A stretch of DNA of 34,591 bases, from contig LOEZ01000014.1 of assembly GCA_001516055.1 (NCBI GenBank), forward strand, positions 1 through 34,591, in the 5' to 3' direction. This stretch comes from Gracilibacter sp. BRH_c7a. Its GTDB lineage: Bacteria > Bacillota > Desulfitobacteriia > Desulfitobacteriales > Syntrophobotulaceae. A program made the translations under genes and the position numbers. The notes below the pieces were generated by a model that saw nothing but the letters and a program-made list of their open reading frames with translations, searched no databases and was not told the origin of the DNA. Below, piece by piece: positions 30,646 to 33,667 of the stretch (position 1 is the first letter of the stretch; each line of letters starts with the position of its first letter).

Positions 30646-31150
30646 TGACAAATCAGCTAAGAGTGCTCTTAGCATCGCCCTAAACTATTTGAGCAGAAGA
30701 CAGTTGACTATCTTTCAGCTTACTAAGAAGTTGGAACAAAAAGGTTTTACTTCAGATGAAATTCTTGAGGCCTTAGATAAACTAATCGAATGGAAATACC
30801 TTGATGACCATAGTTATGCTGTCGCTTACTGTAAAAATAAACGGGATAAGTATTCTAGGGCAAGGATAAAAATGGAGTTGCAAAAGGCAGGTATTGATAA
30901 ACAAATTATCTTTGTAGTGCTAGAAAATTTATATATTAGTGCTAGGGAAAACAAGACCTGCTTGGAGCTCGGACAAAAGTTATTTCAGATTGAACAGGAA
31001 AAATGGGAAAAAAGATATAAAAATATAAGTAAATTTTCGTTTGAAATATATATTAAGAAAAGAATAGGGGATAAGCTTTTGCAAAAGGGTTATCCCCTAG
31101 ATACTGTAAGAAATGTTCTTGCCGAAATTATCTCTGGAGAGAATTTTTAG
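30635..31150 (+). CDS. recX: Regulatory protein RecX
   Basis: A roughly 171-residue, mostly helical RecX family protein, built from three-helix repeats, that binds RecA filaments and modulates recombination. Signature stretches are [19 protein letters not shown] and [30 protein letters not shown]. The start is unclear: ATG 30635 and TTG 30623 both lie inside the end of recA and neither has a good ribosome-binding site, so translation is probably coupled to recA. Confidence 0.9.
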
Positions 31151-31170
31151 ATACGGTTAATTAAGTAAAC

Positions 31171-31199
31171 TTGACAATAATTATACATTTAATTAAACT
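31171..31199 (+). promoter_or_regulatory. Candidate promoter in the rny leader
   Basis: TTGACA 31171-31176 and TAAACT 31194-31199 are separated by 17 bases. A transcript from here would start near 31206 and meet the terminator at 31345-31366 before reaching rny. Confidence 0.5.
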
Positions 31200-31344
31200 A
31201 ATGATAATGGACCTGTACCATGTAAATTATTAACCTCTAAAAGGTTTTCTCTTATATATTTTTTGCAACCGAACATCATGTGGCATCTAGGCATTGAGTA
31301 TACGTTTTAAGGGAAGAATTATCATTAAGGTTATTTTTTACAGG

Positions 31345-31366
31345 ACTGGTCTGACCAGTTTTTTTT
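31345..31366 (+). terminator. Intrinsic terminator in the rny leader
   Basis: A 6-bp stem ACTGGT/ACCAGT (31345-31350 with 31354-31359), CTG loop and eight Ts (31359-31366). It lies about 195 bases after recX and 60 bases before the rny start. It may end the recA-recX transcript, end a small RNA from the promoter at 31171-31199, or attenuate rny. Confidence 0.7.
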
Positions 31367-31426
31367 ATTTTTGAAGATAAAATGAGATTAAGTTTATATT
31401 TTTTAAGTATGAGGGAGGTGAAAAAT

Positions 31427-32974
31427 ATGGGGTTATCAGTTTTGTATGTTGTAATTAGTTTATTGGCTGGACTGGGATTAGGTGGTCTAGTTGGATGGTT
31501 TATTCGTAAAACAGTTGCGGAGAAAACTATTGGTTCCGCTGAAATAGAAGCGAAAAGAATCAAAGTGAATGCTGACACCGAAGCTGAGGCCAAAAAAAGA
31601 GAAGCTATTGTTGCTGCTAAAGAAGAAGTCATGCTTATCCGTAATGATGTCGAAAAAGAAACAAGAGAGAGGCGCAATGAACTTCAGCGTATGGAGAGGC
31701 GTTATCTTCAGAAAGAAGAAACTCTGGAACGAAAATTAGAGACATTAGAACGTAAAGAGGAGAATTTACAGCGCAAAGAAGCGGATGTAGAAAAGCAAAA
31801 AAATAGTTTAAACGATTTAATTGCCAAACAAGTAGCCGAATTAGAAAGATTATCAGGTATGACCCCTGAAGAAGCTAAGCAACTTCTGCTAAAAAGTGTA
31901 GAAGAAGAAGTCCGTTATGAATCGGCGATTATGATTAAGGAATATGAGACCCGAGCCAAGGAAGAGGCTGAGAAAAGGGCAAAAGATATTATCTCTCTTG
32001 CTATTCATCGCTGTGCGGCAGACCATGTTGCTGAGAGTACTGTTTCTGTTGTAGCATTACCGAATGATGAGATGAAGGGACGTATAATCGGCAGGGAAGG
32101 TCGTAATATCAGAGCTTTGGAAACTCTTACAGGGATAGATTTAATTATTGATGACACACCTGAAGCAGTCATCTTATCCGGGTTTGACCCTATTAGAAGA
32201 GAAGTTGCCAGGGTAGCTCTTGAGAAACTTATATTGGATGGAAGGATTCATCCTGCTAGAATTGAAGAGATGGTTGATAAAGCTCAAAAAGAAGTTGATC
32301 AGAAAATTCGTGAAGAAGGTGAACAAGCTACTTTTGAAACAGCAGTTCACGGACTTCATCCCGAACTCATCAAACTTTTAGGTCGTCTAAGATTTAGAAC
32401 TAGTTATGGTCAAAACGTCTTAAAGCATTCTACAGAAGTATCTCATTTAGCTGGTTTAATGGCAGCTGAGTTAGGCATTGATGTTCAGAGTGCTAAACGT
32501 GCTGGACTATTACATGATATTGGTAAAGCAGTTGACCATGATATTGAAGGGACCCATGTTGAAATTGGTGTTGATATCTGCAAGAAATATAAAGAATCAA
32601 CTGATATTATTCATGCTATTGAAGCCCATCATGGAGATACTGAACCGAAAACTATTGTTGCCGTACTTGTGGCGGCAGCAGATGCTGTATCTGCTGCTAG
32701 ACCAGGTGCCAGACGCGAAACTTTGGAAACTTATATCAAACGTTTACAGAAGCTAGAAGAGATTGCTGAAACCTTTGAAGGTGTAGAAAAATCTTATGCT
32801 ATTCAAGCAGGTAGGGAAATACGAATAATTGTTAGTCCGGATAAAATTGATGATGTCCTGGCCCCAAGGGTAGCCCATGATATTTCTAAGAGGATTGAAG
32901 CAGAGTTAGAATATCCCGGACAAATAAAGGTAGTTGTTATTCGGGAAACCAGAGCAGTTGATTATGCTAAGTAG
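31427..32974 (+). CDS. rny: Ribonuclease Y
   Basis: A 515-residue membrane-anchored endoribonuclease that starts mRNA decay in Firmicutes. An N-terminal membrane helix (about 3-26) is followed by a long charged coiled coil (about 30-190), a KH RNA-binding domain (about 205-270, [17 protein letters not shown]) and an HD domain with [12 protein letters not shown] near 360-371. Length is typical. ATG 31427 has GGAGGTG 6 bases upstream; an in-frame ATG at 31382 has none. A terminator-bearing leader precedes it. Confidence 0.97.
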
Positions 32975-33154: not shown

Positions 33155-33667
33155 ATGGTCGCAATGGATGTAACTAATGTTGATTCCAACTATTTGAATT
33201 ACAGCACGGGGTTATTAGTATCTATACTATTAAGATACCCTGAAGTTGGAACCATCAGTTGCTGTCAAAAACAACAGGCACTAATTCTCAAATTCTTAGT
33301 GACTAAGGACTGTAAGTTTGAAGGGCTTAAAACAAAGCTGACACAAGCCTTAGAAATGTTTCATAAAATAGAAGGTCGTAAAATGCGATTGTTCAGTATT
33401 GAGAAACAAGAACAGGAACTCGATTTATTAGTTATAACTAGAGATCTTGGCAGCATTACTCAGAATGAAATGAACTTGATTGTGGAAATTATTAAAAATG
33501 ACCTCGAAAAACAATTGATTGTCGATGACAGTAATTTGATGGAAGAAGAAATTGTTTTTCAAGAAGAGACGATAAATCACATGTTAGCAGCTATACGTTC
33601 TAACGGAACAGAAAAAAATATTACAGCTTTAAGAGATGATGGAAGAGTCCTTGTTTTTAATGGTTAG
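33155..33667 (+). CDS. Uncharacterised protein between rny and ymdB
   Basis: A 170-residue soluble, acidic protein that I do not recognise. It has no signal peptide or membrane segment. The N-terminal part (about 1-115) alternates strands and helices (STGLLVSILLRYPEVGTISC, then LILKFLVTKD and LDLLVITRD), suggesting an alpha/beta fold; the C-terminal part is a charged helix (about 120-150) and a short tail. ATG 33155 has AAAGGA 9 bases upstream. It follows the rny terminator, and its 3' end is 50 bases before ymdB, so it may be cotranscribed with ymdB. Composition matches its neighbours, which argues against recent transfer. Function unknown. Confidence 0.82.
   Translation: MVAMDVTNVDSNYLNYSTGLLVSILLRYPEVGTISCCQKQQALILKFLVTKDCKFEGLKTKLTQALEMFHKIEGRKMRLFSIEKQEQELDLLVITRDLGSITQNEMNLIVEIIKNDLEKQLIVDDSNLMEEEIVFQEETINHMLAAIRSNGTEKNITALRDDGRVLVFNG

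Follow-up and report, generated by a model that had tools for sequence, protein, structure and literature searches.

In a 34,591-nucleotide stretch of DNA from Gracilibacter sp. BRH_c7a (contig LOEZ01000014.1, positions 1 to 34,591; hereafter the window), the interval in front of rny, the gene for RNase Y, probably specifies a transcription attenuator that acts in cis as the 5′ leader of the rny transcript. RNase Y is a main initiator of mRNA decay in Gram-positive-type bacteria and sets mRNA lifetimes in much of the Bacillota. That a conserved, cis-acting rny leader exists is real, and such a leader is undescribed in the literature searched. Comparison among relatives, an argument from sequence, establishes the leader, its confinement to rny, its core helices and an alternative pairing of one helix (P1) with the terminator (Table 1). 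If rny is indeed controlled by a conserved termination switch, RNase homeostasis would have a second route, at the level of transcription, and the leader would be both a prospective Rfam family and a test case for the sensing of RNA-decay capacity through a leader RNA.

Table 1 Features of the rny leader and its gene, in window positions.
Feature	Position	Strand	Basis
Promoter TTGACA (31171-31176), 17 nt, TAAACT (31194-31199)	31171-31199	+	10/12 consensus positions
Structured rny leader RNA, about 160 nt	31206-31366	+	R2 match 31201-31365, E = 7.4e-11; start inferred from −10
P1 5′ arm, putative antiterminator helix (GGACC-U-GU..CC.UGUAAA)	31209-31226	+	window fold; f2 counterpart covaries
P2 5′ strand UAACCU, partner 31328-31333	31231-31236	+	fold and alignment
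P3 5′ strand UUUUCUCUUA, within the most conserved segment AACCU..GGUUUUCUCUUAUA	31245-31254	+	fold and alignment
P3 3′ strand UAAGGGAAGA	31308-31317	+	fold and alignment
P2 3′ strand AGGUUA	31328-31333	+	fold and alignment
P1 3′ arm; overlaps terminator 5′ arm	31336-31352	+	window fold; f2 covariation
Intrinsic terminator AGGACUGGUCUGACCAGUUUU and U tract	31342-31367	+	stem-loop 31342-31362, then TTTTATTTTT
Shine-Dalgarno sequence of rny, GAGGGAGGTG	31411-31420	+	sequence; ATG at 31427 follows
rny, RNase Y, 515 aa	31427-32974	+	TIGR03319, E = 4.2e-236; RNase_Y_N, KH and HD domains

The leader lies in the order rimO, pgsA, cinA, recA, a recX-like gene, leader, rny, an unassigned ORF and a TIGR00282 (ymdB-like) gene. 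The 3′ end of recX is located 20 nt upstream of the −35 element of the leader promoter, and the gap between the terminator and the rny ATG amounts to about 60 nt. A 530-aa ORF start at 31382, given in the ORF listing of the rny frame, is mechanical, and the start of rny is the ATG at 31427. The nearest relative genome in the comparison set belongs to the same genus as the window. Three further features of the window were recorded: the unassigned ORF downstream of rny (33155-33667, 170 aa) had no match in NCBIfam or Pfam, a 23S rRNA gene extends into the window edge with its 3′ end (1-265), and a minus-strand promoter-like site (31207-31180) and ORF (31276-31677) offer a possible antisense reading.

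A sequence-only reading of this DNA had proposed the TTGACA/TAAACT promoter, a terminator at 31345-31366 and, between them, a transcript of about 160 nt that ends about 60 nt before the rny start. The promoter was confirmed, the terminator is present as 31342-31366, and the RNA was matched by covariance models and is conserved among relatives. Counts of such sites over the whole window stayed within chance (18 promoter-like sites versus 22.9 in shuffled sequence, 7 terminator-like sites versus 4.4), and we regard the promoter and terminator as real because they are conserved in relatives. In the family of the window (f1), promoter, RNA and terminator stood upstream of rny in the same order in 15/15 loci fetched by blastn (L001-L015, the window's copy included), and the promoter spacer is likewise conserved. 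All aligned leaders, 26 of family f2 and 14 of f1, share the terminator 5′ arm ACUGG, with one G for A as the sole exception. A strict TTGAC pattern was found upstream of rny in 57/57 further regions of the order (shuffles 1.9) and in 60/60 regions of the phylum (shuffles 2.6). The arrangement of promoter, terminator and gene was present in 54/57 rny regions of the order (failing in L139, L157 and L158) and in 43/60 of the phylum, regions which, L157 excepted, had been chosen by rny; for L157 the stretch scanned for terminators fell inside rny. The background among non-rny ORFs was 6/111. This background is all that we took from a separate count, which gave the arrangement for 27/27 rny genes, because 32/33 of its sources had been pre-selected by a pattern that included part of the promoter and of the core.

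The spread of the RNA was assessed by homology searches. A blastn search with 31130-31440 matched 26 of 61 genomes at E ≤ 0.01, and rny was the next gene in all 15 loci fetched from these matches, the window's own among them. Covariance model R1, built from 14 f1 leaders including that of the window, had matches in 46/73 genomes of the order and covered 31200-31364 in the window. Within the order, 57 further rny upstream regions were fetched, and a recognisably homologous leader was present in those of family f2. From 26 of these f2 leaders we built a second model, R2, with a hand-written structure and zero f1 sequences. The window leader was detected by this f2-only model (E = 7.4e-11), which places it in one RNA family with the rny leaders of f2, including those of Desulfosporosinus. 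Across the class, R2 yielded 62 matches in 61/82 genomes (17/25 in f1 and 44/45 in f2) and none in the 12 class genomes of other families. All 62 adjoined rny on its upstream side; for 61 the distance from the end of the match to the first aligned codon of rny was 39-142 nt, and the remaining one (G068) had rny downstream in the same locus. An exact-pattern scan of records with contigs of up to 430,787 bases retrieved 32 records that bear the names Desulfosporosinus, Peptococcaceae or related ones, or are MAGs.

The 21/82 class genomes without an R2 match comprised eight from the f1 genera g5 and g11, one from f2 (G072), three from family f3 and nine from f4. Ten rny regions from g5, g11 and f3 that lack an R2 match keep the TTGAC promoter, and inspection by eye showed a terminator ahead of the gene in them; long rny leaders were observed in these groups despite the lack of a match (f3: L150, L151, L158; f1: L146-L148 and L152-L155). 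Genome G064 carries two rny matches (contigs C84 and C33), each with its own leader, which reflects a duplication or a mixed bin, and in the leader L102 (G019) the 5′ part is apparently duplicated in tandem.

The window leader folds into a rod-like structure of −36.5 kcal/mol (z = −2.08). For the 26 f2 leaders we proposed seven helices, in which 87.2% of the cells were paired; two-sided changes in these helices numbered 52, compared with 18.1 in shuffled alignments (0 of 500 reached this value) and 13-26 in slid controls. Helix P1, which is mutually exclusive with the terminator, was 87.3% paired in f2 and had 12 two-sided changes versus 4.3 shuffled (0 of 500) and at most 6 slid. A U/U mismatch in P1 sits at the same position in most f1 and f2 folds. 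Covarying stems among relatives, which the sequence-only reading had named as a check, were found in f2 for the core and P1, but not within f1 alone, where the pair counts of P1, P2 and P3 equalled the shuffles and the helices were formed in 96.9%. Locus L008 was omitted from alignment A2.

In the window, the two predicted states are close in energy, with −36.5 kcal/mol for the antiterminator form (P1) and −34.3 kcal/mol for the terminator form. We compared these forms in a competition test in which the terminator was kept and the sequence upstream of it was shuffled. In f1, 13/13 leaders had an antiterminator form better than the shuffled mean; the 14th (L002) was left out of the energy test, where the script had anchored on a wrong CUGG. 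The test was mixed for the 26 f2 leaders (p = 0.055, with 38% of the shuffles doing as well as the native sequence), and in the f2 genus g12 the terminator form was favoured by 5-11 kcal/mol. Both the mixed f2 result and the preference in g12 are attributed to a 5′ arm that forms its own hairpin. A 5′-arm hairpin of the g12 type would free the terminator, and this hairpin, P1 and the terminator together make up the three-way scheme typical of attenuators.

According to the mechanism that we propose, RNA polymerase would start near 31206, and P2, P3 and an apical hairpin would form in the nascent RNA. Pairing between its 5′ end and the terminator 5′ arm could give P1. With P1 formed, the terminator would be blocked and transcription would continue into rny; with P1 absent, transcription would stop at about 31366 and an RNA of 160 nt would be released. 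Termination in vivo and this direction of the switch are what we infer from the two alternative folds. The leading candidate for the signal is RNase Y itself, which may bind or cut the conserved core when in excess, and the leader would then provide homeostatic feedback. Feedback by RNase Y is plausible because the enzyme autoregulates in B. subtilis, though via mRNA cleavage (PMC10303841).

A different signal is conceivable. The core may be a metabolite riboswitch that controls rny via the same terminator switch, a reading that differs from attenuation by RNase Y in the signal only. The layout of a core plus an expression platform, with core parts far better conserved than the rest, would suit a riboswitch, but the gene directly downstream was rny in 62/62 cases and never a biosynthesis or transport gene, and no Rfam riboswitch matched; we therefore consider a metabolite signal unlikely. 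It is also quite improbable that the interval mainly gives rise to a free small RNA, rod-shaped and 6S-like in outline, with its own promoter and terminator, from which rny is reached by incidental read-through. Such an RNA would fit the strong promoter, the discrete terminator, the rod-like fold and the near-invariant core segment. However, an RNA of this kind should occasionally turn up at other loci, whereas all 62 matches in the class are located directly at rny and the only ones elsewhere are three weak matches in the phylum that we judged to be chance. The RNA is also not 6S RNA, for which the RF00013 match lies at another genome position, and the spacer offers rny no other strong promoter. 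Between the terminator and the Shine-Dalgarno sequence, the best promoter-like scores were on average at shuffle level (f1, 7.9 versus 7.5; order, 7.4 versus 7.3; phylum, 6.5 versus 6.4) among leaders with a pattern-found hairpin and a Shine-Dalgarno sequence 15-130 nt beyond it. Scores of 9 or better occurred in 2/15 f1, 9/46 order and 1/33 phylum leaders, and the spacer of the window holds one 9-of-12 site (TTGAAG/TATATT, 31371-31400). Transcription of rny could also come about by read-through from recA-recX. The sequence-only reading had offered a small RNA and an attenuating leader side by side. We favour the leader over a free small RNA because the RNA occurs only at rny, the terminator-exclusive helix covaries in f2 and the downstream promoter scores equal the shuffles; the leader may in addition have a role as a released small RNA.

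The two remaining alternatives appear very improbable to us. If the hairpin were the terminator of a recA-recX operon and the promoter match had arisen by chance, the short distance from recX to the −35 element (20 nt) and site counts not above those of shuffles would be expected, but the roughly 160 nt between recX and the terminator encode a conserved RNA with covariation in f2, and the promoter recurs in 15/15 f1 loci and in the 57/57 further regions of the order. Attenuation by a leader peptide would require that translation of a near-leaderless ORF (M-D/E-L-F-L-V-N...) over the 5′ arm in f1 sets the fold. Such a frame was seen by eye in many f1 leaders and in the window comprises eight codons (MDLYHVNY; 31207-31233, ATG at 31207) that overlap the 5′ arm of P1. 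It has no Shine-Dalgarno sequence, though, its start is missing in L005, it is stopped after two codons in L015, and by eye no conserved frame was present in f2; moreover, P1 accounts for the same bases.

The attenuator that we prefer has parallels among known systems. At the gathering score, Rfam 15 returned only the 23S rRNA end for the window, and at permissive E-values no family reached its gathering score for the leader and sets of 17 and 20 loci. The rod-like fold led us to consider 6S RNA (RF00013), which shares with the leader this fold, a similar length and an own promoter and terminator. The leader, however, did not score as 6S RNA (no match up to E = 10), and the 6S RNA of the genome is found at another place (G000:C7:63507-63689). 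Six 6S RNA matches were noted on several contigs of genome G044, compared with one in most relatives. Attenuation leaders and riboswitches of the Bacillota (T-box, SAM box and others) resemble the rny leader in that a single gene is preceded by a conserved core, an antiterminator and an intrinsic terminator, whereas the rny leader is without Rfam match and the controlled gene is that of the RNase itself. In E. coli, the rne 5′ UTR is a structured leader of the main decay-initiating RNase that senses its own enzyme and thereby exerts feedback on RNase E. Unlike the rny leader, it works by mRNA decay instead of termination and belongs to an unrelated enzyme, and it gave no Rfam match here.

RNase E leader feedback has been set against RNase Y in the Discussion of a study on B. 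subtilis (PMC10303841). According to this study, RNase Y autoregulates by cutting its own mRNA in the UTR and the first 100 nt of the ORF, followed by RNase J1 (Korobeinikova et al. 2023). The rny 5′ UTR of B. subtilis is similar to the leader described here in that it precedes the same gene, has its own sigma-A promoter, measures 164 nt and is subject to sensitive RNase Y feedback, but this feedback acts by mRNA cleavage, and the words ‘terminator’ and ‘attenuat’ are absent from the main text. Terminated riboswitch leaders build up in B. subtilis upon RNase Y depletion (PMC3542257). Neither our searches of the open-access literature nor the accessible text of two structured-RNA surveys (PMC6429828, PMC2864571) yielded an account of a terminator-bearing rny leader, and the descriptions of RNase Y autoregulation found there, within the same bounds, concern B. 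subtilis only and act via mRNA cleavage.

Judging from the upstream regions compared, dedicated rny leaders are widespread in the phylum. Our sample consisted of 60 rny upstream regions (L214-L273) of 43 families, taken non-randomly, mostly down the score list, from 60 of 106 rny-bearing genomes. A sense terminator was detected by the scanner in 44/60 regions (antisense 4; shuffles 1.8). Likewise 44/60 regions, from 31 families, contained a hairpin CCGRG...CUCGG, referred to here as the CCGAG...CUCGG hairpin, between promoter and rny, where 0.35 were expected. The conservation of its sequence (CCGAGUU...ACUCGG) goes far beyond the need of an intrinsic terminator. Some hairpins of this type have no good U tract (e.g., L251 and L258), which makes a second role, such as protein binding, possible. 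Elsewhere in the phylum genomes, the loose pattern CCGAGTTN{1,8}CTCGG occurred at about the frequency of reversed controls. The exact 16-mer CCGAGTTTCTACTCGG, however, occurred at least seven times, and all seven among the matches listed were at rny. The phylum leaders gave a positive mean result in the competition test (native 6.1, shuffled 8.7, p = 3e-6, n = 39), and direct P1-like duplexes were weak (native −9.4, swapped −8.8 with p = 0.12, shuffled −8.2 with p = 0.022, n = 39). The duplex test kept 39 of 44 leaders, L259 and L265 having been dropped and three short ones removed by the length rule.

We make no claim of a single family for the window RNA and the CCGAG-type leaders because a common 5′ profile failed to join them: an nhmmer profile of the 5′ parts of 25 phylum leaders matched 3/92 targets, all from f3 (E 0.0005-0.0013; reversed controls 0), and none of the f1 or f2 leaders; it also matched 0/35 held-out phylum leaders and is therefore a weak profile. 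The core string TTCTTATA was present in 7/60 phylum leaders (0.3 expected) and in 3/3 f3 leaders. A spread of the R2 family beyond the order was considered and rejected; the three weak matches among 398 phylum genomes (G166, G199 and G203; E 4e-4 to 4e-3) had no rny in the fetched locus. We tentatively suggest that much of the phylum may meter RNase Y by termination in a dedicated leader whose core, outside the order the CCGAG...CUCGG hairpin, senses RNase Y activity. If so, such a leader would meter the very enzyme by which terminated leader RNAs are cleared, and Gram-positive bacteria would possess an analogue of the RNase E leader that acts via termination instead of decay. As a minor observation from the phylum searches, the palindrome-like CCGAGTTTTAAACTCGG or its reverse complement stood out by its count on contig C2 of genome G131, with nine places among the matches listed.
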